From Rariglobus hedericola (GTDB taxonomy: Bacteria > Verrucomicrobiota > Verrucomicrobiia > Opitutales > Opitutaceae): a DNA stretch of 64,000 bases. Made by a program: the position numbers and the translations under genes. How positions within the stretch are numbered: the stretch's first letter is position 1; each line of letters opens with the position of its first letter. Positions 4,566-62,295 of this stretch are shown here, piece by piece. The stretch covers positions 1,984,001-2,048,000 of the forward strand of contig NZ_VMBG01000001.1 in the NCBI RefSeq assembly GCF_007559335.1, written 5' to 3'. Under the pieces are notes generated by a model. It saw only the letters and a program-made list of their open reading frames with translations. It did no database searches and had not been told where the DNA came from.

Positions 4566-5462
4566 TTGAGCCATCCTGAAACTCACTTCTCTCGTTACCT
4601 TCCGCGCCCTCGTGAAGCGGATATCTGGGGCGTTGCGGTAACGGGTGGCGGCCGACTTAAAAGCCCTCCGTCCGCCCCGTATCCACCTGCGGGTCACCCC
4701 GCCGATCACGCTTTTTCCTGGGATCACGGTCGCGTCCTCGGGGCCTGGCAATGGGTGGCTATCACCGCTGGTCGCGGTTGGTTTGAATCCGCCCGCCAAC
4801 CGCTCACCTCCGTTTCCAAAGGCGATCTGCTGCTACTCTTCCCCGACGAATGGCACCGCTATCGCCCCGACCCTGAAACCGGCTGGACCGAACTCTGGTT
4901 GGAGTTGCAAGGGCCCGCACTCGAGCGCCTCCAATCCGCCGGGATTCTTTCGCCCGATCAACCCGTGCAATCTTTCACCGGCACTTCGGCCGAATCGCTC
5001 CTCACGCGATTGCACGCACGGCTGCGCGAAAACGAATCCGGCTTTGATCCCGAACTCACCGGCTGGGCGTGGCAACTGCTCACCCAACTCGACACCGTCC
5101 GCCGGCAAGTCAACGCACCCGAAAGCGATATCGCACGGGCCATTCGCCGTGCCGAAGTCCTGCTCGCTGAACGCCTCGAAAATCCACCCGCCATGCCCGC
5201 CCTCGCCCGTGAACTCGGAGTGGCCTATTCATATTTTCGTCGTGAATTCGCGAAGCAAACCGGCCTCGCTCCGCACGCCTACCTGCTCCGCCTCCGCTTG
5301 GAAAAAGCCCGTCGTCTCCTCGGCAACGGCACCGCACCATTGAAAGACATTGCCGCGCAACTCGGCTTCAGTTCGCCCTATCACCTCTCTGCCGCTTTCA
5401 AGCAGGCGTTCGGCACGTCACCAGCCCACTGGCGCCGCCGGCCGGTTAAAACATCCAGTTAG
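4566..5462 (+). CDS. AraC-family transcriptional regulator, likely of rhamnose genes
   Basis: The 298-residue protein has an N-terminal cupin-like sensing half (residues about 35-105, including GDLLLLFPDEWHRYRPD). The C-terminal double helix-turn-helix of AraC proteins spans about residues 190-290, with PAMPALARELGVAYSYFRREF as the first HTH and IAAQLGFSSPYHLSAAFK as the second, the latter matching the family signature closely. The start is TTG at 4566; no earlier ATG is in frame and no strong ribosome site is seen. Divergence from rhaA with a repeat between them points to control of rhamnose use, as RhaS/RhaR do in enterics; the effector is inferred. Confidence 0.88.
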   Translation: MSHPETHFSRYLPRPREADIWGVAVTGGGRLKSPPSAPYPPAGHPADHAFSWDHGRVLGAWQWVAITAGRGWFESARQPLTSVSKGDLLLLFPDEWHRYRPDPETGWTELWLELQGPALERLQSAGILSPDQPVQSFTGTSAESLLTRLHARLRENESGFDPELTGWAWQLLTQLDTVRRQVNAPESDIARAIRRAEVLLAERLENPPAMPALARELGVAYSYFRREFAKQTGLAPHAYLLRLRLEKARRLLGNGTAPLKDIAAQLGFSSPYHLSAAFKQAFGTSPAHWRRRPVKTSS

Positions 5463-5517
5463 ACAAAGGCGCCGGGATTTGACGCCTGCCACTTTCCCCC
5501 GTCACCGTATCCACTCC

Positions 5518-6507
5518 ATGAACCCCGCATCCCCTCGCTCGTTGGCACGACTCAGCGGCCTGATTCTCGCCGTTGTCCTGCTCACTCCTTCTCTTTTTTC
5601 CGCTGAGCGCGAATCGCTCAAACTCCTTGCGATCGGCAACAGCTTTTCCGACGATGCCACCCGACTCCTCCCACAAGTCGTCAAGGCCGCCGGCAAAGAG
5701 CTCATCATCGGCCGCGCCAGCATCGGCGGTTGCCCGCTCGAACGCCACGCGCGCCACCTTAAAGAAGCCGAATCCGGCAATCCCAACGGTCACGCTTACA
5801 AGGGCGCCACCGACCCCAAGACCGGAGAGAAGCGCGACATGTCACTCCCCGAATTACTCTCCGCTCAAGCCTGGGATGTCGTCACTATCCAGCAATGGAG
5901 CCAATTGAGTTTTAAGCCCGAGACCTTTCAGCCCTTCGCCGACGAACTCATCGCCGCCATCCATAAATACGCGCCCACCGCCGAGATCGTCGTCCATCAA
6001 ACCTGGGCCTACCGCGAAGATCACGACTGGTTCAAAAAAGACGACGGCTTCACCCCCGCCAAGATGTATACCGGCCTGACCTCGACCTACAAAAATTTCG
6101 CCGACGGCAAAGGCTTCCGTGTCCTCCCCGTGGGCGATGCCCTGAACCTCGCCCGCCAGACCCCGCGCTGGACCTACGTCACGGATCCGAATTTCGACTT
6201 CAAAAATCCTCCCGCCGGCCAGCTGCCCGATCAGCGCACCAGCCTGAACATCGGCTGGCATTGGAAGAAAAACAAAGCAGGCGCCACCGCCTTCACGCTC
6301 GACGCCATCCACTGCAACCCCGCCGGCCAATACCTCGGTGCCAACGTCTGGTATTCGATACTCTATCAGACCGACACGCTACCCGATTCCTACGCGCCCA
6401 TCGGCATGACCGCCGAAGACGCCGCCGATCTCCGCGCCCACGCCCTCACCGCCGTCAAAGCCGAGCGCGCCCGCGAAGCCGCGCTGCACCCCGTCGTCGC
6501 CAAATAA
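5518..6507 (+). CDS. Secreted DUF4886/SGNH-like hydrolase
   Basis: The ATG at 5518 gives a 329-residue protein with a signal peptide (LSGLILAVVLLTPSLFSA) cleaved near residue 29. The mature part begins with LLAIGNSFSDDA, the GNS block of DUF4886 proteins in the SGNH-hydrolase fold. It ends with DAIHCNPAGQYLGANVWY, which supplies the usual catalytic histidine. Such proteins are common in Bacteroidota, Verrucomicrobiota and Planctomycetota, often next to polysaccharide-use genes, and are thought to act on esterified glycans. The exact substrate is unknown. It follows the AraC gene by 55 bases in the same direction, so co-transcription is possible, and ends 2 bases before the convergent xseA stop. 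Confidence 0.8.
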   Translation: MNPASPRSLARLSGLILAVVLLTPSLFSAERESLKLLAIGNSFSDDATRLLPQVVKAAGKELIIGRASIGGCPLERHARHLKEAESGNPNGHAYKGATDPKTGEKRDMSLPELLSAQAWDVVTIQQWSQLSFKPETFQPFADELIAAIHKYAPTAEIVVHQTWAYREDHDWFKKDDGFTPAKMYTGLTSTYKNFADGKGFRVLPVGDALNLARQTPRWTYVTDPNFDFKNPPAGQLPDQRTSLNIGWHWKKNKAGATAFTLDAIHCNPAGQYLGANVWYSILYQTDTLPDSYAPIGMTAEDAADLRAHALTAVKAERAREAALHPVVAK

Positions 6508-24378: not shown

Positions 24379-25704
24379 TTAGCGACGGCCGCGAAACCCG
24401 CCTCCGCCCGAACGGTTGCCACCACCGGGACCACCGGATTGACCACCTCCGCCCCCTCCACCGCGCTGACCAGATGAACCCTGCTGCGGACGACGGCCGC
24501 CACCACCGCCTCCGCCGCCACCACCAGCGGGTCTACGCTGCTGTTGCTGGCCTTTTTTCGGATACGAGGGGTTCATGACAAACGGCTGATAAGGGAAACC
24601 CTCAAGACGGAGCTCGGGGATCTTCGCACCGATGAAGCGCTGGATGTCACGGATGTCGTCGGCGTTCTCCGGCGAGACGAGCGTGAACGCATCGCCCACG
24701 GCCATCGCACGACCCGTGCGACCGATACGGTGGACGTAATCCTCCGGGTTTTCCGGCACATCATAGTTGATGACGTGGGTTACGCCGGCGACATCGATGC
24801 CGCGTGCAGCGATATCCGTGGCGACCATGATTTCGTATTTGCCGCTTTTAAAACCGGCGAGCGCCTCGATGCGCTGATTCTGGGAACGATTCGCGTGAAG
24901 CACCGCAACGGTGTGCTTGGCAGCCTTGAGACGGGCGGCGATTTTATCGGCTCCGTGTTTGGTGCGGCTGAACACCAGCACACTTTGGAAATCGGTTTTT
25001 TCGAGCAGCGCGACCAACAGGTCGAACTTCTGGGCCCAGGCGACGGGATAGAGAGCGTGATTGACCGACTGGTTGACGGAGCGATTGACGCCGCATTCGA
25101 CGCGATCGGGGTTCTTCAACGCGAATGATGCGACGGCAGCAATCTCCGGAGGAACGGTCGCCGAGAAGAACAGCGTCTGGCGGCCTTTCGGGCAGCGGGC
25201 GATAATGTCTTTGACCACAGGAAGGAAACCCATGTCGAGCATGCGGTCCACTTCGTCGAGAACGAGAATCTCGATGGTGTTGAGCGAGAGTTCGCCGCCC
25301 TTGATGTAGTCCATCAGGCGACCCGGAGTGGCGGAGATCACATCGACGCCGCGCTTGAGTTCGTTGCGCTGGGCACCGTAACCAACGCCGCCGAACAGGG
25401 CGACCGTGCGGATATCGGTATGGCGTGCGAAATCGCGGAACGCCGTCTCGACCTGCGCAGCGAGCTCACGCGTGGGCTCAAGGACGAGCACACGGGGCGC
25501 GCGGCCGTGGGTGCCGAGCCGGGAAAGAATGGGAAGGGCGAACGCGGCGGTCTTGCCAGTGCCGGTTTGAGCGGAGGCGATCAGGTCGCGTCCGGAGAGC
25601 ACCACGGGAATGGCGCGCAATTGAATGGGAGTCGGATCGGTGTAACCGGCCGAGACAACGCCTCGGAGGATATCCGGAGCGAGATTGAGATCTTTAAAGG
25701 ACAT
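24379..25704 (-). CDS. DEAD-box RNA helicase (RhlE/CsdA-like) with glycine-rich tail
   Basis: The ATG at 25704 (MSFKDLNLAPDILRGVVSAG) gives 441 residues; a longer in-frame start has no family support. All helicase motifs are in order: Q motif (PTPIQLRAIP), ASAQTGTGKT, PTRELA, TPGRL, DEVD, SAT, ATDIAARGIDV and HRIGRTGR. The last 70 residues or so are almost only Gly, Gln, Arg and Ser, ending FRGRR, an RNA-binding disordered tail seen in RhlE-type enzymes. It remodels RNA, probably in ribosome assembly or cold adaptation. It lies next to an RRM protein with a similar tail, in the same orientation. Confidence 0.95.
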   Translation of the reverse strand: MSFKDLNLAPDILRGVVSAGYTDPTPIQLRAIPVVLSGRDLIASAQTGTGKTAAFALPILSRLGTHGRAPRVLVLEPTRELAAQVETAFRDFARHTDIRTVALFGGVGYGAQRNELKRGVDVISATPGRLMDYIKGGELSLNTIEILVLDEVDRMLDMGFLPVVKDIIARCPKGRQTLFFSATVPPEIAAVASFALKNPDRVECGVNRSVNQSVNHALYPVAWAQKFDLLVALLEKTDFQSVLVFSRTKHGADKIAARLKAAKHTVAVLHANRSQNQRIEALAGFKSGKYEIMVATDIAARGIDVAGVTHVINYDVPENPEDYVHRIGRTGRAMAVGDAFTLVSPENADDIRDIQRFIGAKIPELRLEGFPYQPFVMNPSYPKKGQQQQRRPAGGGGGGGGGGRRPQQGSSGQRGGGGGGGQSGGPGGGNRSGGGGFRGRR

Positions 25705-25844
25705 GGATGCAAAAACGGGTCGGACTGAATACCCGCGCACAAAGGCGCCGGCAGAGGGACGCGCGACCCGCGCGCCCACGGACAGGCGAAATGCCCATCC
25801 TAAAAATGTGACCACCGAAGCGGTCGGAATTTGAAAAACAAAAA

Positions 25845-25911: not shown

Positions 25912-26292
25912 TTAGTAACGACGATCGCCGCCGCCGGAGCGGCCGCCACCACCGAAGCCGCCACGGCGTTCGCCGCCGCCGCCGCCACCGAAGCCACGGC
26001 CACCGCCGCCGCCGCCACCACCGAAGGAACGGCCAGCGCCTTCCTCTTTCGGACGGGCTTCGTTAACAGTGAGAGCGCGGCCGCCGAGATCGACGCCGTT
26101 GAGCTTCTCAGCAGCAACCTTGGCCTCTTCAGGAGAAGAGAAAGTGACGAACGCGAAACCGCGGGGGCGGCCGGTCATTTTGTCCATGGCGACATAGACG
26201 TCGGTGACGTTACCGAACTGGCCGAAAGCCGAGCGGAGCTCGTCTTCGGAGGTTTTGAAGGACATATTGCCAACGTAGAGTTTGGAACTCAT
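25912..26292 (-). CDS. RRM-type glycine-rich RNA-binding protein
   Basis: The 126-residue protein has one RRM: KLYVGNMSFKTSEDELRSAF contains RNP2, and RPRGFAFVTFSSPEEA contains RNP1 with its aromatic residues. A tail of about 45 Gly, Arg and Ser residues follows, ending GGGDRRY. The layout is that of bacterial Rbp proteins, known best in cyanobacteria, often cold-induced RNA chaperones. The ATG at 26292 sits directly against a stable predicted stem in the leader, so its own translation may be controlled by structure. It has its own terminator. Confidence 0.93.
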   Translation of the reverse strand: MSSKLYVGNMSFKTSEDELRSAFGQFGNVTDVYVAMDKMTGRPRGFAFVTFSSPEEAKVAAEKLNGVDLGGRALTVNEARPKEEGAGRSFGGGGGGGGRGFGGGGGGERRGGFGGGGRSGGGDRRY

Positions 26293-26637
26293 AGGATGAT
26301 TCGTCGATTCCCGTCCGCTGCCAGTCCGTTCCCGACTATCGGGTTTCAAATCATCCCGGGTCCAATACCCACTGACGACTCACCAGTTCCTGTCATCTAA
26401 CGCTTCTCTGACGATAAGCCTCATGAGATGAGCTGTAATTTCATAAACGCAATAAAAATCGCGACATACCATATCCATGTTCACTGAATAAAGAGCAGCA
26501 ACACGTTTGAAATCAGGCATTCCCTGATTCTTGTAGAGCCTGTTCGCCACGCCGCGATTTAATCACCGCGAGCACATATTTTGGCCTTATTTGCGCCATT
26601 CCGCCTCTATTCTTTTATTTTAATCCCATCTAGCTTT
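26293..26637 (-). promoter_or_regulatory. 345-bp gap with a structured leader of the RRM gene
   Basis: On the minus-strand transcript GGATGATTTG (26347-26356) can pair with CGAATCATCC (26294-26303), a 10-bp stem with one G-U pair that ends one base before the ATG. Inside it CCCGA/TCGGG forms a hairpin at 26331-26343. No Shine-Dalgarno motif is visible, so the fold could hide the start. Further out a 7-bp hairpin lies at 26511-26529. No gene is supported in the gap. Folding is by eye only. Confidence 0.5.
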
Positions 26638-26856
26638 GTGAAAACCATTCACACTTCCCCTCAACCTGCCCCAGAAGCTCGCAGCCAACGCTCGGAACGC
26701 TGGATTGTCATCGGCTGGGCCTTGATCGCCGTAAAATGCACCGCCCTGTGGTGGCTGATCGAAACCTATCACGTGCCGATTCATCCCATGTGGCTGGTCG
26801 GCCCCACCGTATTATTCGGTTTACTGGCGACCGCGCTGTATATCTGGAGAGATTAA
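26638..26856 (+). CDS. Small two-helix membrane protein of unknown function
   Basis: A GTG at 26638 opens a 72-residue protein (MKTIHTSPQPAPEARSQRSE as its start). Two hydrophobic helices, about residues 24-40 and 50-68, are joined by a short loop with YHVPIHPMW. An upstream in-frame start at 26581 is possible but would add an unlikely segment. No family is recognised. The next gene begins 10 bases later in the same direction, so they are probably co-transcribed. Confidence 0.6.
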   Translation: MKTIHTSPQPAPEARSQRSERWIVIGWALIAVKCTALWWLIETYHVPIHPMWLVGPTVLFGLLATALYIWRD

Positions 26857-26866
26857 TTCGCCCAAC

Positions 26867-27805
26867 ATGCCCCACGTTCCCGGACTTCGCAGCGAATACT
26901 CACTCACCGGCCGTCTGGTCCATTTCGGCCGGATGCTCGATAAAATCCGCCTTCAATCAGAAGGCCGGCTGCCGGCGGATTATCAGTCCAACCTCGGCAT
27001 CGGGTTTGACGGGCGCACCTGCAGTTTCCTTGGGATTGATTACGCCACGCTGAAAACACGCACGCTCGCGGAGGGCTGCGATGAAGACGTCTTGCATTGG
27101 GCTCACGCCGAAGGTGGCTCACGTTCGGACGAACAGTGCACCATCTGGAACCGTTTCATGATGAAGCTGGGTTGGCGCGACGATCGCACGCCCGTCCTGC
27201 TCGAACGCATCGCTTCGAGCGGTCTCATCGGCAAACAGATCGAGACCATGTTTGATTTTAACGATTTCGACGAAGGTCGTGATCCCGTGACTGCTCGCTC
27301 GTGGGAACTCAATGAACCTCGCGTGCTCCTCCTGATGGGCGTCAGCGGTAGCGGCAAGTCCACGGTCGGCCGGCTGCTCGCCGATTCGCTCGGCTGGGCA
27401 TTCATCGATGCGGACGACCTTCACCCGCCCGCCAACATCGCCAAACTCTCCGCCACCATCCCGCTCACCGACGCCGACCGCGCACCTTGGCTGGCAAATG
27501 TCCGACGCCACATTGATGCTTCGATCGCCGCGCGCAAAAACACCGTGCTCGCCTGCTCTGCGTTAAAAGCAACCTACCGTGAGTTGCTGGTCGACGACCC
27601 CGGCTGCGTGAAACTCATTTATCTCAAGGGCTCACCCGAACTCCTCGCTGCGCGTCTGTCCGCCCGTGCCGGACACTTTGCACCGCCGGCTCTGCTCACC
27701 AGCCAGCTCGAGACCCTTCAAGCGCCCCGGCATGCATTGACGCTCGATGTCTACGCGAGCCCTGAAGCTCTCGTCTCGTCGGTCCGGCGTCACTACGGGA
27801 TCTGA
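26867..27805 (+). CDS. DUF5069-gluconokinase fusion protein
   Basis: The 312-residue protein joins two domains. Residues 1-145 form a DUF5069 domain: VPGLRSEYSLTGRLVHFGRMLDKIRL, GFDGRTCSFLGIDY and WNRFMMKLGWRDD are family landmarks. Residues 150-312 form a GntK-type carbohydrate kinase: LLLMGVSGSGKSTVGRLLAD is the Walker A loop, FIDADDLHPPANIAKLS the substrate segment, and LACSALKATYRELL and IYLKGSPELLAARLSARAGHF the lid and base-binding parts. The kinase should make 6-phosphogluconate from gluconate and ATP. DUF5069 has no known function. No stop or frameshift lies between the halves, so the fusion appears real. Confidence 0.88.
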   Translation: MPHVPGLRSEYSLTGRLVHFGRMLDKIRLQSEGRLPADYQSNLGIGFDGRTCSFLGIDYATLKTRTLAEGCDEDVLHWAHAEGGSRSDEQCTIWNRFMMKLGWRDDRTPVLLERIASSGLIGKQIETMFDFNDFDEGRDPVTARSWELNEPRVLLLMGVSGSGKSTVGRLLADSLGWAFIDADDLHPPANIAKLSATIPLTDADRAPWLANVRRHIDASIAARKNTVLACSALKATYRELLVDDPGCVKLIYLKGSPELLAARLSARAGHFAPPALLTSQLETLQAPRHALTLDVYASPEALVSSVRRHYGI

Positions 27806-27870: not shown

Positions 27871-28596
27871 ATGGCACGCGGCATGAAATCCAACAAGAAG
27901 AGCTACACCGTTTATTTTGCGAGCGAGCTTTTCAGCCTCAAGCACCTCATCGGCAACGCCTATCTGGCCGAGGCCATTTACGAGAAATCCCACGGGAAAT
28001 ATCTCTGCGTTCTCCCGCAAAACATCGAGCAACGCCGCACCACCGCCCACAGTATCCGCGACGTGGATATCCGCACGCTGCTGGCCTGCGATCTCGCGCT
28101 CTTCAACTACGATGGCACCGAACTCGATTCGGGCACGGTGATCGAATTCATGTTCGCCAAGTTCGCCGACATCCCGGCGGCGATTCTTCGCAGCGATTTC
28201 CGCCACGGCGGCGACCAGGTCGGCGACCCGTGGAACCTCATGTCGAGTTTCTATCCGCGCACGACCAGCGTCGTGGTCAACAGCATCGGCCTCTACAAGA
28301 CCGCCACCCAGACCCGCCGCCGCGCCACGACTAATCGAGCCAAGGCCGACGAAGTCGTGCGCCTCGCCGGACAACACAGTTCGGCCGATGCCCAAAAGAT
28401 GTGTGAACACATCGCCGAGGCCTGTGTGCGCGCCCTCGATAAAGTCACCGCCATCGAGCCCGTCATGCCCAAGCATCTGCGCGAGGAAGTCTATCAATGG
28501 CTCGCCCTCATGCCGAATCTCAAAGGCAACAAAAAGGATCTGCGCCGCGAACTGGAGATCATCCTGAAGAACAAAGTGGAGCGTGACTTGCTCTGA
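27871..28596 (+). CDS. Nucleoside 2-deoxyribosyltransferase-like protein
   Basis: The 241-residue protein starts with YTVYFASELFSLKHLIGNAY and contains LLACDLALFNYDGTELDSGT followed by VIEFMFAKFADIPAAILRSD. These are the substrate loop and the catalytic Glu region of the nucleoside 2-deoxyribosyltransferase family (EC 2.4.2.6-like), which swaps bases between deoxyribosides. The C-terminal 80 residues are helical and not part of the usual enzyme (about 160 residues). An alternative ATG lies at 27883. It ends 13 bases before upp, another base-salvage gene, which supports a salvage role. Confidence 0.75.
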   Translation: MARGMKSNKKSYTVYFASELFSLKHLIGNAYLAEAIYEKSHGKYLCVLPQNIEQRRTTAHSIRDVDIRTLLACDLALFNYDGTELDSGTVIEFMFAKFADIPAAILRSDFRHGGDQVGDPWNLMSSFYPRTTSVVVNSIGLYKTATQTRRRATTNRAKADEVVRLAGQHSSADAQKMCEHIAEACVRALDKVTAIEPVMPKHLREEVYQWLALMPNLKGNKKDLRRELEIILKNKVERDLL

Positions 28597-28609
28597 GCGG
28601 TCTACCGCC

Positions 28610-29224
28610 ATGCTGCACATTCTCAATCATCCGCTCGGCGCCCACATCATCACGCAGCTGCGTGATCGCACCACGCCACCGGCCACGTTTCGCACGCTCT
28701 GTTACCGCATCGGACTCTTGCTCGCGCTCGATGCCACGCGCGATCTCGCTTTGAAGGATGAGGTCGTCGAAACCCCGCTCGAAAAACACACCGGGCAAGC
28801 CCTCGCCAAGCCGCTTGCCGTCATACCCATCCTCCGCGCGGGTCTCGGCATGGTCGAACCCTTCACGGATTTGTTTCCCGATGTGAGCGTCGGCTATGTC
28901 GGTCTGGAGCGAGACCATGAAACCGCGCTGCCGCGCAGTTACTACCAGAAGCTCCCTCCCCTCGCCGATAAACGCGTGCTCGTCGTCGACCCCATGCTCG
29001 CGACGGGCGGTTCCGCCGTGCTTGCGCTGGATGCGTTGATCGCCGCCGGCGCCACCGATATCAGCCTCGTGTGCATCGTCTGCTCGCCCGAAGGCGTAAA
29101 GGTCGTCGAAGCCGCTCATCCGACCGTGCCGATTTTCACCGCCGCCCTCGACCGCGAGCTCAACGCGAAGAAATACATTCTCCCCGGCCTCGGCGATTTC
29201 GGCGACCGCCTCTACGGCACCTGA
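28610..29224 (+). CDS. upp: Uracil phosphoribosyltransferase
   Basis: The ATG at 28610 gives 204 residues, normal for Upp. It makes UMP from uracil and PRPP. VIPILRAGLGMVEPFTDLFP is the uracil/flexible-loop region, VVDPMLATGGSAVLALDAL is the PRPP-binding motif, and ALDRELNAKKYILPGLGDFG is the C-terminal uracil-binding motif. It is the last of a run of plus-strand genes and its stop abuts the convergent helicase gene stop with no spare base. Confidence 0.95.
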   Translation: MLHILNHPLGAHIITQLRDRTTPPATFRTLCYRIGLLLALDATRDLALKDEVVETPLEKHTGQALAKPLAVIPILRAGLGMVEPFTDLFPDVSVGYVGLERDHETALPRSYYQKLPPLADKRVLVVDPMLATGGSAVLALDALIAAGATDISLVCIVCSPEGVKVVEAAHPTVPIFTAALDRELNAKKYILPGLGDFGDRLYGT

Positions 29225-31941: not shown

Positions 31942-32832
31942 GTGAGCAATCCAGCCCCCACTAAATCCCTACCCTTCGAGATTGTCCTGCCGCCCGACTC
32001 CACGTTGCCGCCCGGACACTTTTTTTGCGATGGCCGGGAGTTGCTCATCGCCGATCATTTGGCGCTGTTCGCGGTTTTGGGCCCGACCCACGGCGGTAAT
32101 GGCGTAACGACGTTTGCACTACCGGATAGACGAAAAGAGGAGCAGGATTTGGCGGGTAGTCGTTACGCTATTTGCGTGACCGCCCCTTCCACCGCCGACG
32201 GGCAGATACCAAACACCGGCCAAACGCCGCTGCGAAATGGCCATCTCGAAGGCGCACTCGCAATCTGGCACTCGTTGTCTCCCCGAGTGGGCCTCGCGGC
32301 ATTTAACTTCGCTCCCGCCGGGTTTGTCTCGTGTGACGGCACTCACCTGGAGGTAGAAAAATATCCGGACTTGTTCGGTTTATTGGGTGCGCGATTCGGC
32401 GGCGATGGGGTGAGCACTTTTGCGACGCCCGACTTGAGCGCACTGCGTGAATTCACGGCGACGCTTCCGATCATCTCAACCGAGGCGAACAACGATCAGG
32501 ATGTCCTCGGGGTGATCCGCAACGCGGGCGGTTGCGGCAATCTAGCCGCTTATCACCGATGCGATGGCACTCTGCTCGATATCACCGCCAACACCGCGCT
32601 TTACGCTCTGCTTGGCCATGCCTACGTCGTCGCGCCGCTTGCGATGCCTCCCGTCGCCGCCGAGCCGAATCCGCCTTGGTGGAAAAAATGGCTGGGCGCA
32701 AAACCCCAGGTCACTCGGCAGACAGTGCAGAGCACTTTCGCCCTGCCGGATTTGCATGCGCTGGAAGCTTTGTCGGGGGAGCGTTACTTGATCTGTATTT
32801 CGGGATTTTTCCCCTCGCGCACCTCCACTTAA
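31942..32832 (+). CDS. Protein with three tandem tail-collar-like domains
   Basis: A GTG start at 31942 opens a 296-residue protein made of three copies of the phage tail-collar pattern (PxG..xCDG..L....LF.LLG..xGG.G..TFxxPD). Copy 1 has PPGHFFCDGRELL to TTFALPD, copy 2 has APAGFVSCDGTHLEV to STFATPD, and copy 3 has HRCDGTLLDITANTALYALL to STFALPD with a 35-residue insert in place of the GG turn. Microcystin-dependent proteins and phage fibre-tip proteins share this unit. No other phage gene is nearby, so it is a stand-alone cellular gene. It has no signal peptide. Confidence 0.8.
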   Translation: MSNPAPTKSLPFEIVLPPDSTLPPGHFFCDGRELLIADHLALFAVLGPTHGGNGVTTFALPDRRKEEQDLAGSRYAICVTAPSTADGQIPNTGQTPLRNGHLEGALAIWHSLSPRVGLAAFNFAPAGFVSCDGTHLEVEKYPDLFGLLGARFGGDGVSTFATPDLSALREFTATLPIISTEANNDQDVLGVIRNAGGCGNLAAYHRCDGTLLDITANTALYALLGHAYVVAPLAMPPVAAEPNPPWWKKWLGAKPQVTRQTVQSTFALPDLHALEALSGERYLICISGFFPSRTST

Positions 32833-56517: not shown

Positions 56518-57041
56518 GGAGTGGTCGTGGTCGGAGGAGTGGTCGTCGAAGGAGTCGTTTCTGCGGCTGGTTCGGCAGCCGTCTTGGTCTTGTCGCTAAC
56601 ATTGCCGAAGGCAAAGCGGCTGATGAGCGACTCGAGGTCGACGGTCGACTCGGTGTCGCTGATCATCGCGCCGGATGGAAGCATTTCATCATCGGAGCCG
56701 GGAGAAAGCGCGAGGAACTTATCACCGATCAGTCCGCTCGTCTTGATCGAAGCGATGGAGTCGGTGGGGAGTTTGACGTCTTTACGCACGCTCAGTTCGA
56801 CGACCGCACTGTAGTCCTCGGGATTGAGCTTGATGGAATCGACACGGCCCACCGGCACACCGGCGATGAGCACATTACTGCCGGGATTGAGACCACCGGC
56901 GTTGGTAAAGCGCGCCTTCAACGTGTAGGTGTCACCGCCCAGCATCGCGCCCGCGCCAATGCGCAGCGCGAGGTAGGCCACCGCGAGGAGGCCTGCGAGG
57001 ACGAATACACCAACGATCAGTTCCAATCTGGACTGTTTCAT
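56514..57041 (-). CDS. mlaD: MlaD-type MCE-domain protein
   Basis: The 175-residue protein has one N-terminal membrane helix (LIVGVFVLAGLLAVAYLAL) and one MCE domain (residues about 40-115, with FTNAGGLNPGSNVLIAGVPV and SIKTSGLIGDKFLAL). A short Pro/Thr-rich end follows. The domain forms a hexameric ring that passes lipid between MlaFE and MlaC. Overlaps of 4 bases on both sides couple it to mlaF and mlaC. Confidence 0.93.
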   Translation of the reverse strand: MKQSRLELIVGVFVLAGLLAVAYLALRIGAGAMLGGDTYTLKARFTNAGGLNPGSNVLIAGVPVGRVDSIKLNPEDYSAVVELSVRKDVKLPTDSIASIKTSGLIGDKFLALSPGSDDEMLPSGAMISDTESTVDLESLISRFAFGNVSDKTKTAAEPAAETTPSTTTPPTTTTP

Positions 57042-57862
57042 AAATCTTCTCCCGACATTACGGTTTCACCACGACGGAGCGCCGCGATGGAGTCTCGCAG
57101 GCTCGCCGCGCTGTCGCGGAATGCGCACACGGTAGGATCGGCGGACCTGCTAAAGGCCTCCGGCGTTCCCTGAAATTGCATGCGACCTGAATCGAGCAAG
57201 GCAACCTGATCGCTGGCGACGAGCGCCTCGGGCAGATCGTGGGTCACGAGCACCGCGGTGAATCCGAACTGGCGCTGATACTTCACGATCATTTCAAACA
57301 CCCGGTTGCGACGGATCGGATCAAGGCCGGCGGTCGGCTCGTCAAAGAGCACCAGTTCGGGACGCGTGACGATGGCACGGGCCAGGGCAAGGCGCTTTTG
57401 CATGCCTCCGGAAAGCTGCGCCGGGAAACGGTCTTTATGCTTTTCCAAGTCGAGTTGACGCAGCGCTTCGAGCGAGCGCTCGCGAATTTCCCGGTTGGGA
57501 ATCTGCGTGGTCTGCTCGAGCGGAAGCGCCACGTTTTGCAGAGCCGTGAGTGAATCGAGCAACGCATTGCTCTGGAAAAGATAACTGCAGCGACGGCGAA
57601 ATTCCACGCGCGACTCCGCGTCCTGGGCGTTGAGTGAATGGCCGTCGAAACAGATGTCACCCGCGTCCGGCCGCACGATGCCGGCGAGACATTTTAAGAA
57701 GACGGATTTGCCGGTCCCGCTCTTGCCGAGAACCGTGACCACGCTGCCACGCGGCACGGCGAGATCGACGCCGGCCAGCACGACATTTTCGCCGAAGCGC
57801 TTGTGCAGGCCGCGGACGTCGAGAAACAGATCGGTGCCCGTGGCGGTATCCGCGGTGCTCAT
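57038..57862 (-). CDS. mlaF: MlaF-type ABC ATPase
   Basis: The 274-residue protein has a full ABC set: VTVLGKSGTGKSVFLKCLAG (Walker A), LSGGMQKRLALARAI (signature), LVLFDEPTAGLDP (Walker B) and VLVTHDLPEAL (H loop). It powers lipid transport with MlaE. No MlaB (STAS) gene follows, although MlaB stabilises MlaF in enterics; the C-terminal 40 residues here (SADPTVCAFRDSAASLRDSI) may act in its place, which is inference. 4-base overlaps link it to mlaE and mlaD. Confidence 0.95.
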   Translation of the reverse strand: MSTADTATGTDLFLDVRGLHKRFGENVVLAGVDLAVPRGSVVTVLGKSGTGKSVFLKCLAGIVRPDAGDICFDGHSLNAQDAESRVEFRRRCSYLFQSNALLDSLTALQNVALPLEQTTQIPNREIRERSLEALRQLDLEKHKDRFPAQLSGGMQKRLALARAIVTRPELVLFDEPTAGLDPIRRNRVFEMIVKYQRQFGFTAVLVTHDLPEALVASDQVALLDSGRMQFQGTPEAFSRSADPTVCAFRDSAASLRDSIAALRRGETVMSGEDL

Positions 57863-58644
57863 GGTGTTTTCACCAGCAGCGAGGTGATCAAGTAATCAGC
57901 GGCCAGCACGGTGATGCTGGACAACACGACGGCACGAGTCGTCGAGGCGCTCACGGCGCGGGCACCGGTGGAGTTGCGGCGCAGGTGGGCGTTGAAACCG
58001 TTGTAAGCGCAGATCGCGATCGTCAGCAGTCCGAAGACCGCCGCCTTCGTGAAACACTCGCGCACATCCTGCGGACCGACGGCGTTGTGCACCGCTGACC
58101 AATACACGCCTGGCTGCAAGTTCAACAGCACCGAGCCGGAAAGATAACCGCCAAATAAACCGACGAGGGAGAACACCGCCGCATGCACGGGAAACACGAT
58201 CAGCGCGGCGATGAGTCGGGGGGAAACCAGATAAGCATGCGTGCTGGCACCCATCGTCTCGAGCGCGGCGATTTGCTCACTGTTGCGCTGAATGCCGAGT
58301 TCGGCGGCGAGCGCGGAACCGGCCTGGCCGACCAGCATCAACGCCGCGAGAACCGGCGCGAGTTCACGCACCAACGTCAACGAGACCAACGTGCCGAGCA
58401 GCCCCTCCGAGCCGAATCGATTGAGCACATAATATCCCTGCAAACCCAGCACAAGCCCGGTGAACAAACCCACGATCAGGATGACCGGCAGGCAGCGCAC
58501 GCCTTGCTCGTAGATGGCACGGATGACGCGTCGCCCGAGCTTGCGCGAACCCACGGCAGCCGTGAACGACCGAGCCGTGAACAGGGTAAAGTCTCCCAGT
58601 TCATGAACTACGGAAAGCGTATGCTGGCCTAGAAAGCGCGACAT
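57859..58644 (-). CDS. mlaE: MlaE-type ABC permease
   Basis: The ATG at 58644 gives 261 residues, as in E. coli MlaE (260); a TTG at 58683 would add 13. GLVLGLQGYYVLNRFGSEG, TLVRELAPVLAALMLVGQAG, AAELGIQRNSEQIAALETMG are family blocks and five to six hydrophobic helices are seen. It forms the membrane core of the MlaFEDB complex that shuttles phospholipid. It heads an operon mlaE-F-D-C-A-rsmD with 4-base overlaps throughout the mla part. Confidence 0.93.
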   Translation of the reverse strand: MSRFLGQHTLSVVHELGDFTLFTARSFTAAVGSRKLGRRVIRAIYEQGVRCLPVILIVGLFTGLVLGLQGYYVLNRFGSEGLLGTLVSLTLVRELAPVLAALMLVGQAGSALAAELGIQRNSEQIAALETMGASTHAYLVSPRLIAALIVFPVHAAVFSLVGLFGGYLSGSVLLNLQPGVYWSAVHNAVGPQDVRECFTKAAVFGLLTIAICAYNGFNAHLRRNSTGARAVSASTTRAVVLSSITVLAADYLITSLLVKTP

Positions 58645-58838
58645 GAAAGCGGTCAGCAAAGCCAACTCATTGGCGACACGCAAGATCGCGCGCGCCGATT
58701 CATTTCACCCTTCCCAACTACCGACGGACAATGGCATTGGGCTAAATTTATGCACCGTCTGAACCCCTAAACGCCCACGCGAATGATGAAATGCTAGAGG
58801 CATCAACCGGATCGAACGGATGATGCCTGCCTCGCCAG

Positions 58839-58865
58839 CCGGCTCAGGAGTTGAACGAGCCGGCT
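58839..58865 (-). other. Inverted repeat over the uxaC stop
   Basis: AGCCGGCTC (58839-58847) and GAGCCGGCT (58857-58865) form a perfect 9-bp stem with a 9-base loop overlapping the uxaC stop at 58844. There is no T tract, so it is an mRNA end stabiliser or rho-type stop at best. Confidence 0.5.
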
Positions 58866-60277
58866 TCGAGGGCGAAGTAAGCGGCGGCGTTGTCGTAGCA
58901 GATATCGCTCACGAGTTTCCCCACCGATGCTTCGTCGGCCGGAATGAGACCCGCCTCAACATCCGCCCCGATCAATGCACAGAGGATGCGACGGAAATAT
59001 TCGTGACGCGGATAACTCAGGAAGCTGCGCGAGTCCGTGAGCATGCCGACAAACTTGGACAACAAGCCGAGTTGGGAAAGCGCGTTAAGCTGCATTTCCA
59101 TGCCCTCTTTTTGGTCGAGGAACCACCAACCCGAGCCGAACTGAATCTTGCCCGGGGTAGTGCCATCCTGAAAATTTCCGGCCATGGTCGCGAAGACGTA
59201 GTTGTCGGCTGGATTCAAATTATAGAGCACGACCTTCGGCAGCTGGTTGTCGCGGTCGAGCGCGTCGAGGTAACGCGAGAGCGCGCGCGCCTGCGAAAAA
59301 TCACCGATCGAATCCACGCCGGCATCGGCACCGAGGCGTTTCAACAGGCGGCTGTTGTTGTTGCGCAGGGCTCCCAGGTGGAGCTGCTTCGTCCAGCCGC
59401 GTTTCGCGTCGAGCTGGCCGAGGTAAATCATGATGAACCAGACCCACTTCGCGGTATCCGCAGTCGTGGCGGCGGCACCGGAACGAACAGCGTTGAAAAT
59501 CACCTCGGCTTCGGCGCGCGTGCAGTCGGCGTCGGGAAGATTTTCTAAACCGTGGTCGGAGAGACGTCCGCCGATGGAGTGGAAAAACGCGTGGCGTTGA
59601 TCGAGGGCCTGAAGCAGTGAATCAAGCGAGTCGACCTTCACGTCGGCGCGGGCGGCGAGCTGGTCGGCCCAGGCGTTGAACACGGCGGGCGCGGCGACGG
59701 CCATGAGTTTGTCGGCGCGGAAGGTCGGATACACGCGAGTCTCCAGACCGGACTTCGCGATGGCGACGTGGTGCTCGAGCGAGTCGGCGGGGTCGTCGGT
59801 GGTGCAGACGACGGCGACTTTGTTCGCGGTGAGGATGCCGTGGGTCGAGAGCGCGGGCTTGGCGAGCTCGGCGTTGGCCAGTTCCCAGATGAGCGGGGCG
59901 TTGGTCTCGTTAATGAGAAGATCGATGCCGAAGTAGCGGCGCAGTTCGAGGTGCGACCAGTGGTGCAGCGGATTGCGGAGGAGCTGCGGAACGATGCGGC
60001 AGTAGGCCAGAAACTTATCGTAGTCGGACGTAGTGTTGCCCGTGATGAAATCCTCATTCACGCCGGCCGCACGCATCGCGCGCCACTTGTAATGGTCACC
60101 GGCGAGCCAGATCTGCGTGAGGTTTTCGAACTTACGATTCGCGGCGATTTGATCCGGCGGGAGGTGGCAGTGATAGTCGTAGATCGGCTGCGGCTTCGCG
60201 TAGGTGTGATACAACAAACGCGACCATTCGGTGGTCAGCAGGAAATCGTCGTGGAGGAAAGCGGAGGCGACGGACAT
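58844..60277 (-). CDS. uxaC: Glucuronate (uronate) isomerase
   Basis: The 477-residue protein is the usual size for UxaC. It turns D-glucuronate into D-fructuronate and D-galacturonate into D-tagaturonate. YDYHCHLPPDQIAANRKFEN is the metal-site start of the amidohydrolase-type barrel, NLTQIWLAGDHYKWRAMRAA and TSDYDKFLAYCRIVPQLLRN follow, and MLTDSRSFLSYPRHEYFRRI is the C-terminal block. It is the last gene of a three-gene unit with a sugar-phosphate isomerase-like protein and a Gfo/Idh oxidoreductase. Confidence 0.96.
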   Translation of the reverse strand: MSVASAFLHDDFLLTTEWSRLLYHTYAKPQPIYDYHCHLPPDQIAANRKFENLTQIWLAGDHYKWRAMRAAGVNEDFITGNTTSDYDKFLAYCRIVPQLLRNPLHHWSHLELRRYFGIDLLINETNAPLIWELANAELAKPALSTHGILTANKVAVVCTTDDPADSLEHHVAIAKSGLETRVYPTFRADKLMAVAAPAVFNAWADQLAARADVKVDSLDSLLQALDQRHAFFHSIGGRLSDHGLENLPDADCTRAEAEVIFNAVRSGAAATTADTAKWVWFIMIYLGQLDAKRGWTKQLHLGALRNNNSRLLKRLGADAGVDSIGDFSQARALSRYLDALDRDNQLPKVVLYNLNPADNYVFATMAGNFQDGTTPGKIQFGSGWWFLDQKEGMEMQLNALSQLGLLSKFVGMLTDSRSFLSYPRHEYFRRILCALIGADVEAGLIPADEASVGKLVSDICYDNAAAYFALEAGSFNS

Positions 60278-60291
60278 GGGAATAAAATGAA

Positions 60292-60315
60292 GGGGCTTCG
60301 AATTAACGAAGCCCC
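60292..60315 (-). other. Intercistronic hairpin before uxaC
   Basis: GGGGCTTCG at 60292-60300 and CGAAGCCCC at 60307-60315 are a perfect 9-bp stem with a 6-base loop in the 54-bp gap between the isomerase-like gene and uxaC. On the minus strand the following sequence is TTCATTTTATT, so it may partly terminate or protect the upstream message. Confidence 0.6.
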
Positions 60316-60331
60316 CAAGGGGTTAAGTAAA

Positions 60332-61105
60332 TCAGGAGACGAGGTTCGCCTTGATATAATCAAAGCTCTGCTTGATGGAGACGAACGGATCACCCGGGCA
60401 GGTATCCTGCTCGACGATGAACCACTCGCAGCCACCGGCCTCGGCCTCGGCGATGATGCGTTTGAAATCGAGCGTGCCGGAACCGACTTCGCAGAAGTTG
60501 GCTTCACCCGATGGGTTCACCTTGAAGTCCTTCAAGTGAATGAAAGGCGTGCGGCCTTTAACGCGTTTGACCCACTCGACGACATCGCCGCCGCCGCGCT
60601 GGACCCAGAAAACGTCGAGCTCCGCGACGATGTTTTCGGGCGAGGTTTCATCATAGATGCGCTCGAGGAAGGTCTTGCCGCCGGCGGGACGGTAGAACTC
60701 GTGGGCATGGTTGTGGTAGCCGAGCTTCATACCGGCGGCGCGAAACTTGGCGCCGGCGATATCGAGCTTTTTTATGAGCGTGTTGACGTGCTCCGGATTG
60801 TCGAAATCGATACCGGCCGGAAACGGATACGCGGTGAGTTTCGTGCCAAGCGCGGCGAGGCGGGCGATCACGGACTCGGTTTCATCAAGAATCTTTACGC
60901 CCGGTTCGTGCGTGGCGCAGATGGTCAGTCCTTCGGCTTTACACATGGCGACAAGCTCGGTCTCGGGAATCGGGCCAACGCCGCTGATCTGCACGGCGGT
61001 GTAACCGATCTCGCGCACCTTCTTCATGGCGGCGGCGAACTCGGGCGCGGTTTTGCAGAAATCGCGGAGTGTGTAGAGCTGGATGGCGACTTGGGAAATT
61101 TTCAT
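60332..61105 (-). CDS. Sugar phosphate isomerase/epimerase-like protein (AP endonuclease 2 fold)
   Basis: The 257-residue protein has the xylose-isomerase-like TIM barrel. IQLYTLRDFCKTAPEFAAAM, GLTICATHEPGVKILDE, KLGYHNHAHEF and ENIVAELDVFWVQRGG, with HLKDFKV later, hold the metal-binding His and Glu positions. Members act on sugars or inositol derivatives and often sit beside Gfo/Idh genes, as here. The reaction is not fixed by sequence. It is between the oxidoreductase and uxaC genes. Confidence 0.85.
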   Translation of the reverse strand: MKISQVAIQLYTLRDFCKTAPEFAAAMKKVREIGYTAVQISGVGPIPETELVAMCKAEGLTICATHEPGVKILDETESVIARLAALGTKLTAYPFPAGIDFDNPEHVNTLIKKLDIAGAKFRAAGMKLGYHNHAHEFYRPAGGKTFLERIYDETSPENIVAELDVFWVQRGGGDVVEWVKRVKGRTPFIHLKDFKVNPSGEANFCEVGSGTLDFKRIIAEAEAGGCEWFIVEQDTCPGDPFVSIKQSFDYIKANLVS

Positions 61106-61134
61106 GGGATTAAGGATAGAGGATGGCGGACGTT

Positions 61135-62295
61135 TTATTTGACCATGGACTTGGCGAAATCGTCGTTGGTGATCTTAACGACCTTCTTCTTTTTCTTCGA
61201 GGCCTTGGAGGTGGCGATCTTCGCCTTGAGGAGACGCTCGTATTTTTTCCCGTCGATCGGAAAGGTGACGGCCTTGTCGGTCCAGGCGGACATCAGCATG
61301 GCGTTGGCGAGCTCGACGGAGCGAATGCCCTCGGCCGCAGGGGCGACCAGCGGAGTGCCATCAAGAATGGCATCGGTGAAGTTTTTCAGAATGCCGTTGT
61401 GCTGATCGCCGTGGCTCGGAGCCGGGATGTTGACTTCCCAGACTTCGGGACGGCCGAACGCCTGGTCCGTCGTGCGGCTGAATTCGCCCATCTCCTGCAC
61501 GTTGCGGGTATAGGTGATTTTGTCTTTCTCATAGACGACCTTGCCGCGCTCGGCGGTGATCTCGAGACGGTTGGTGCCGGGGGCCTCGCCCGTCGACGTG
61601 ATGAACACACCGGTGGCGCCGTTCTTAAAGGTCATGATGGCGGTGACGTCGTCCTCGACCTCGATGTCGTGATATTTGCCGAACTGGCAGTTGGCGCGAA
61701 GGGTCACGGGCAGGCCGAACATCCATTGGAAGAGGTCGAGATTGTGCGGACACTGGTTGAGCAGCACACCGCCACCCTCGCCGCCCCAGGTCGCACGCCA
61801 GCCGCCGGAAGCGTAGTAGGTCTCGGTGCGGAACCAATCGGTGATGATCCAGTTGACGCGGCGGATTTCCCCGAGCTCGCCGCTCTGGATGAGATCACGG
61901 ATCTTAAGATAATAGTGATCGGTGCGCTGGTTGAACATCGCGGCGAACACCTGTTTTTTATTGGTGTGGGCAGCGATGAGGCGCTCGCAGTCGGCGCGAT
62001 GCACCGAGATCGGTTTCTCAACCATGACGTGCAGGCCGGCCTTGAGCGCGGCGATGCCGATCGTGGTATGATCATAGTGCGGAGTCGCGATGAGAATCGC
62101 GTCAATGAGGCCGGAAGCCATCATCTCGGCGGCAGACGAGAAGCCCTTGACCTGCGGAACGCGGGCCAGCTTCGCGGGATCGGAATCCGCCACGGCGGTG
62201 AGCTCGAGACGGCTGATTTTGCCGGCGAGAATTTGATTGGCGTGGGTCGAGCCCATGTTGCCAAGACCAACGATACCAATGCGAACTTTGCTCAT
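61135..62295 (-). CDS. Gfo/Idh/MocA family oxidoreductase
   Basis: The 386-residue protein starts VRIGIVGLGNMGSTHANQIL (Rossmann motif), has MVEKPISVHRADCERLIAAH with the catalytic EKP lysine near residue 100, and GEGGGVLLNQCPHNLDLFQW with the His-containing active-site motif. The Lys-rich end (KASKKKKKVV) is unusual. It likely works with the neighbouring isomerase-like protein on a sugar acid or related compound before the uronate isomerase step. It diverges from a LacI-type regulator. Confidence 0.93.
   Translation of the reverse strand: MSKVRIGIVGLGNMGSTHANQILAGKISRLELTAVADSDPAKLARVPQVKGFSSAAEMMASGLIDAILIATPHYDHTTIGIAALKAGLHVMVEKPISVHRADCERLIAAHTNKKQVFAAMFNQRTDHYYLKIRDLIQSGELGEIRRVNWIITDWFRTETYYASGGWRATWGGEGGGVLLNQCPHNLDLFQWMFGLPVTLRANCQFGKYHDIEVEDDVTAIMTFKNGATGVFITSTGEAPGTNRLEITAERGKVVYEKDKITYTRNVQEMGEFSRTTDQAFGRPEVWEVNIPAPSHGDQHNGILKNFTDAILDGTPLVAPAAEGIRSVELANAMLMSAWTDKAVTFPIDGKKYERLLKAKIATSKASKKKKKVVKITNDDFAKSMVK

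Follow-up and report, generated by a model that had tools for sequence, protein, structure and literature searches.

The window, by which we mean the whole 64,000-nucleotide stretch of Rariglobus hedericola DNA analysed here, contains at 26867..27805 on the forward strand a gene in which a DUF5069 domain of the subgroup that we call A-type is joined to a GntK-type kinase (ORF and profile searches). The frame begins with ATG, encodes 312 amino acids and has zero internal stops. Pfam PF16798 matches residues 7-138 (26885..27280) over profile positions 4-133 of 133, with 120 bits (cut-off 27) and an E value of 8e-35. Residues 139-150 (27281..27316) form a linker, namely the tail with which A-type DUF5069 ends at its C-terminus (DPVxxRxWE, with W146) and which leads directly into the kinase, and residues 151-312 (27317..27802) make up a GntK/IdnK-type kinase domain with the Walker A motif GVSGSGKST (K164). 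NCBIfam TIGR01313 matches residues 155-290 with 154.3 bits, above its curated cut-off of 113.75. The first-pass annotation had described one uninterrupted frame holding a full DUF5069 domain and a full GntK-type kinase, and the two profile matches bear this out. AlphaFold2 gave a confident two-domain model of the whole fusion (pLDDT 94.3, pTM 0.87), the pTM of which suggests a defined domain arrangement. Our family sample has fused homologues in 11 genera; these are 49-73% identical and show no stop where the two domains meet. Fused homologues were also found among records titled Opitutaceae or Opitutus. Because stop-free homologues are present in 11 genera, a sequencing slip or other artefact is ruled out as the source of the fusion, and the original observation is confirmed in a stronger form than first stated.

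The fusion gene is preceded by an ORF read from TTG (26581..26856, forward strand; the true start may be internal), the product of which, about 90 amino acids long, is a putative membrane protein as judged from its hydrophobic sequence; a Pfam search with this product found no family. It would be the first gene of a putative operon. Downstream on the same strand lie a nucleoside 2-deoxyribosyltransferase-like gene (27871..28596, 241 amino acids; PF05014, 46 bits) and, overlapping it, a gene for uracil phosphoribosyltransferase (UPRT; 28583..29224, 213 amino acids; PF14681, 222 bits). A promoter search found one promoter-like site, located on the other strand, which is no more than shuffled sequences give. 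Elsewhere in the window the reverse strand carries a gene for a small RNA-recognition-motif protein with a glycine-rich tail (25912-26349; RRM by Pfam) beside an ORF that reads as DEAD-box-helicase-like (24379-25815), and a 296-amino-acid protein with three phage tail collar domain stretches (Pfam) is encoded on the forward strand at 31942-32832.

The distribution of the gene pair was surveyed in 200 Opitutaceae genomes, gntK being scored from kinase-domain matches with an E value of at most 1e-15. Such matches were found in 121 genomes at 123 places: 35 were fused to DUF5069, 47 were adjacent (DUF5069 upstream, on the same strand and within 400 nt), and 41 had no matching DUF5069 upstream. 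It must be noted that L191 was entered among the fused copies even though the start of its contig cuts into the DUF5069 part, that two of the 41 unlinked copies (L189 and L230) start at a contig edge, and that L189 and L208 belong to the same genome and both lie at contig ends. The position of DUF5069, upstream or N-terminal in all 82 linked cases, follows from the definition of linkage. Of the 38 genera with gntK, 11 had the fused and 17 the adjacent arrangement, and 26 had either; further fusions and separate neighbouring genes, for which the first-pass annotation had proposed a search, therefore both exist. A fusion unique to the Rariglobus strain, or a DUF5069 that never occurs beside sugar-kinase genes, is ruled out by the 82 linked places of 123 in 26 genera. 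Outside the family, 286 genomes of the class were searched, and 60 non-family genomes yielded 62 rows representing 61 gntK loci. None of these 61 loci had a DUF5069 at E 1e-3 within flanks of about 1.5-2 kb, where the contig allowed, whereas the same DUF5069 queries recovered 82 of the 82 linked loci. Chance linkage is excluded because of these counts (82/123 in the family against 0/61 in other families of the class).

In a midpoint-rooted kinase tree of 184 rows, one part comprised all 82 linked copies together with 19 unlinked family copies and one copy from another family. This grouping fits a single origin of the linkage followed by losses. The tree was built quickly, has many poorly supported branches and requires at least eight changes of the linked label, four of them forced by starred branches, so the linkage may also have been gained several times.

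The kinase half resembles solved gluconokinase structures. A sequence search named 3t61, 4eun and 1knq as the nearest solved kinases, and the best Foldseek matches were 4eun (E 1.7e-15, TMt 0.88), 3t61, 1ko5 and 1knq (TMt 0.85). The fusion has the whole kinase domain in common with these GntK/IdnK-type gluconokinases (TIGR01313; 1knq and 1ko5 are E. coli GntK), and the solved chains align with it in the Walker A, DADDLHP, DRAPWL, CSALKxxYR and RxGHF stretches, the window kinase having intact GVSGSGKST, DADDLHP, DRAPWL, CSALKATYR and RAGHF. Unlike the solved enzymes, whose matched chains of 175-202 amino acids cover the kinase part only, the fusion bears an N-terminal DUF5069 on a short linker. 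Fused, adjacent and unlinked kinases do not visibly differ in the aligned motif stretches. A strict P-loop pattern was found in 29/35 fused, 39/47 adjacent and 40/41 unlinked kinases, and a strict RxxHF pattern in 28/35, 36/47 and 28/41, respectively; the copies missed by the P-loop pattern carry other small residues ahead of GK in the aligned stretch. Among the fused kinases, one lacks a P-loop glycine (GVASTGKTT) and one has GHP in place of GHF. In the Rariglobus genome the fusion is the sole GntK above the cut-off (a second match to the GntK profile, with 22.6 bits, is far below it), gnd, the gene for 6-phosphogluconate dehydrogenase, was found, and profile searches detected neither edd nor an FGGY-type gluconokinase over the cut-offs. 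The fusion kinase is probably active on gluconate or a near relative, yielding the 6-phosphate.

The DUF5069 half was predicted by AlphaFold2 to be all-helical (mean pLDDT 95.8, pTM 0.89). Its model shares the fold of 3OMD (Z 16.2, rmsd 2.5 over 134 residues), a Leptospirillum rubarum protein with no assigned function, which was also found by a sequence profile search (E 3e-30). It was the only clear match of the structure search, two more VIA rows being too weak (Z 2.4 and 2.0), and two further chains from the profile search (E 0.62 and 1.9) were taken as chance matches. The family-wide conserved residues R22, D25, K26, R28, D48, W78 and W94 are all present in the window domain, and all seven are kept in the 35 fused rows with the exception of W94 (30/35). 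In comparison with most other DUF5069 domains, the window domain has Arg16 replacing Gly, the DPVxxRxWE tail and the joined kinase. Arg16 was found in 33/35 fused, 39/46 adjacent and 9/9 stand-alone A-type rows, and Gly16 in 88 of the 93 other DUF5069 rows. The tail Trp is present in 34/35, 38/46 and 9/9 of the same three groups and, outside the A-type, in one of 93 rows, 45 of which were unscorable (i.e. in 1/48 scorable rows). Since stand-alone A-type copies possess both Arg16 and the tail Trp, these residues mark the subgroup and not the fusion. All 81 rows with a downstream gntK fall in this one subgroup of 90 rows and none in the other 93 rows; the one exception for non-A types is the unlinked locus L258, where about 370 bases separate gntK from a divergent DUF5069 gene encoded on the opposite strand.

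Among the 47 adjacent pairs 21 overlap or abut, 21 are 1-20 nt apart and five are further apart, a count biased towards short gaps because the candidate start closest to the stop was taken. In eight of the 47 the two genes share a reading frame that is interrupted by a single stop, and two genera (g2 and g82) hold both states. On a tree of 81 pairs (without L191) the fused/separate state changes at least nine times, three changes being forced by starred branches; fusion and fission are indistinguishable on this tree. It is possible, although we would not regard it as the likelier outcome, that the fusions are neutral read-through products of close genes, each arising by loss of one stop codon, an account compatible with the explanation that we prefer below. 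The single-stop pairs, the 42 of 47 pairs that overlap or are not more than 20 nt apart, the genera with both states and the lack of any special DUF5069-kinase coupling (see below) agree with it. It is less easily reconciled with the retention of the fused state across genera (8/8 gntK copies in g7, 8/9 in g100 and 4/5 in g1) and with the near-constant linker: the distance from the DUF5069 end motif to the MGV of the kinase was 17-19 residues in 32 of 32 measured fused sequences (34 tried).

The conserved gene order at linked copies is small putative membrane protein, DUF5069, gntK, penicillin amidase (PF01804), nucleoside deoxyribosyltransferase-like protein and UPRT, and the window has this order minus the amidase. 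At linked loci with enough flanking sequence, same-strand homologues were found for the membrane protein in 71/78, for the amidase in 58/71, for the deoxyribosyltransferase-like protein in 36/71 and for UPRT in 53/71 cases; the numbers for the fused loci alone were 27/32, 17/28, 17/28 and 18/28, and those for the unlinked loci 3/36, 2/35, 2/35 and 3/35. Order, strand and spacing make it very likely that these genes form an operon.

It could be thought that the gluconokinase has in DUF5069-A a dedicated subunit for regulation, docking or dimerisation and that the fusion is a permanent form of their complex; a regulator of the kinase was one of the roles suggested by the first-pass annotation. 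The recurrence of fusion and adjacency, the A-type change of Gly16 to Arg and the high pTM of the modelled fusion would be consistent with such a role, and so would the near-constant linker with the tail Trp, which could just as well reflect docking of DUF5069-A on the kinase. The A-type domain does not, however, occur only with the kinase. We hand-picked 27 family genomes (20 of them at least 90% complete) that had an A-type DUF5069 among the listed matches and no gntK at E 1e-15, and in 22 of the 27, a proportion that is not a rate because the genomes were picked, an A-type DUF5069 had at least one same-strand operon mate and 1.5 kb flanks free of gntK. Counted per locus, 23 of 30 A-type loci in the picked genomes keep an operon mate. 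The mates include the amidase, the deoxyribosyltransferase-like gene or UPRT in 17 of the 22 genomes, and are limited to the membrane protein in five. Arg16 and the tail are also found in the stand-alone A-type copies, of which three (L015, L018 and L019) come from other families of the order, and, conversely, four gntK copies (L129, L202, L204 and L236) have operon neighbours and no DUF5069. Evolutionary distances were compared at the 49 of 81 linked loci that have DUF5069, kinase, amidase and UPRT. DUF5069 correlated with the kinase (0.811) as with the amidase (0.813), and the partial correlation of DUF5069 and kinase (0.40) was hardly greater than that of DUF5069 and amidase (0.34) and smaller than that of kinase and amidase (0.45); thus, at these 49 loci, DUF5069 and the kinase showed no special coupling beyond that with other operon mates. 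A dedicated kinase regulator is unsupported by these results, and we consider a dedicated subunit rather doubtful. DUF5069 is probably not merely a kinase helper, because it is often retained at its position in the absence of the kinase.

The fusion had also been read as a hint of a shared pathway in which DUF5069 would bind or process a sugar acid or its phosphate, together with the gluconokinase and the uronate genes of the window. The uronate genes are indeed present at 58844-62295 (UxaC, a xylose-isomerase-like TIM barrel protein and a GFO/IDH/MocA oxidoreductase); on the reverse strand at 57041-62295 the glucuronate isomerase, TIM-barrel and GFO/IDH/MocA genes lie beside genes for an MlaE-type permease and an ABC ATPase. 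They are 31 kb from the fusion, and no UxaC homologue was detected in the sequence retrieved around each of the 123 gntK places, which leaves the proposed link between fusion and uronate genes without support. As to the shared pathway, the fusion itself is real and widespread, but the sugar-acid part of the proposal was not supported, no DUF5069 being found near the 61 gntK loci of other families. For DUF5069 as an enzyme or binder of a sugar acid, only the fusion and the occurrence of uronate genes elsewhere in the window can be cited. Its usual neighbours are salvage and amidase genes, and the three paralogues of the Rariglobus genome examined for neighbours adjoin a methyltransferase-like gene, Sel1-repeat and glyoxalase-like genes, and a DUF481 gene, respectively. 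We regard this role as very improbable.

The explanation that we favour, and hold to be reasonably likely, is that two operon neighbours have repeatedly merged end-to-end into one polypeptide, in which the kinase is probably active and DUF5069-A would serve the operon and not gluconate chemistry. The A-type DUF5069 lies directly 5' of gntK, usually overlapping it or at a distance not exceeding 20 nt, the gene pair has switched between fusion and separation several times, with the conserved residues kept in nearly all copies, and the joint is a DUF5069 tail of near-constant length entering the first kinase strand. The C-terminal kinase would make the 6-phosphate of gluconate or of a closely related compound, and 6-phosphogluconate could pass via gnd into the pentose phosphate pathway. 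DUF5069-A may be a helical binding or assembly module for the operon, that is, for the membrane protein, the amidase and the nucleobase salvage genes. The genes are presumably co-transcribed, and the fusion would then fix co-production and 1:1 proximity of proteins that were probably co-expressed already; the two domains may also be in contact.

A more far-reaching reading, which we think improbable, is that the operon links the entry of carbon into the pentose phosphate pathway to pyrimidine salvage, and that DUF5069-A, tethered to the kinase in the fusion, is the sensor or scaffold by which the two are matched. Gluconate would be converted through 6-phosphogluconate and, by gnd, ribulose 5-phosphate to PRPP, which the UPRT of the operon would use on uracil freed by the deoxyribosyltransferase-like enzyme. 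If true, this coupling would give DUF5069 its first function. Our literature search found nothing under DUF5069 or PF16798, and the listed uses of 3OMD were unrelated; it also found no gluconokinase work that involved Opitutaceae or a gene fusion with a domain of unknown function, although domain-architecture databases may already list the fusion. DUF5069 has a solved relative, yet we found no function assigned to the domain, and the fusions and the gene order supply it with a defined genetic setting. As the kinase is a soluble, assayable partner enzyme, the role of DUF5069 becomes testable by ordinary biochemistry, and the clusters without gntK are a natural control that separates a kinase-partner role from an operon-level one.

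DUF5069 also occurs in other settings. Among 288 genomes sampled from the phylum it was found in 84, all belonging to the class of the window, with one to nine copies per matching genome listed. In the Rariglobus genome six matches exceed the cut-off, including one that is short and weak; the three paralogues described above are among the five copies other than the fusion. For the 102 non-redundant DUF5069 rows that are not immediately followed by gntK, the recurrent neighbour sets listed revealed no sugar-kinase theme; the largest of these sets had seven loci each, and ten neighbours were named by Pfam. On the reverse strand of L131 (4681-6447) there is a tandem array of four DUF5069 genes, adjoined by a gene for an SRP54-type GTPase, and L132 has an array of three (4827-6113, reverse strand). 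Frames with two consecutive DUF5069 domains were seen at L078, L086, L090, L093 and L280, and may hint at self-association of the domain. Members of another DUF5069 subgroup (L081, L085, L088, L089, L092, L096 and L147) adjoin an opposite-strand gene of about 94 amino acids that reads as pterin-4a-carbinolamine dehydratase-like. The loci L216, L223, L226 and L234 also carry a divergent second DUF5069 gene, at a distance of a few kb from gntK and 3' of the UPRT gene; this second copy groups with L004, a copy from the Rariglobus genome.
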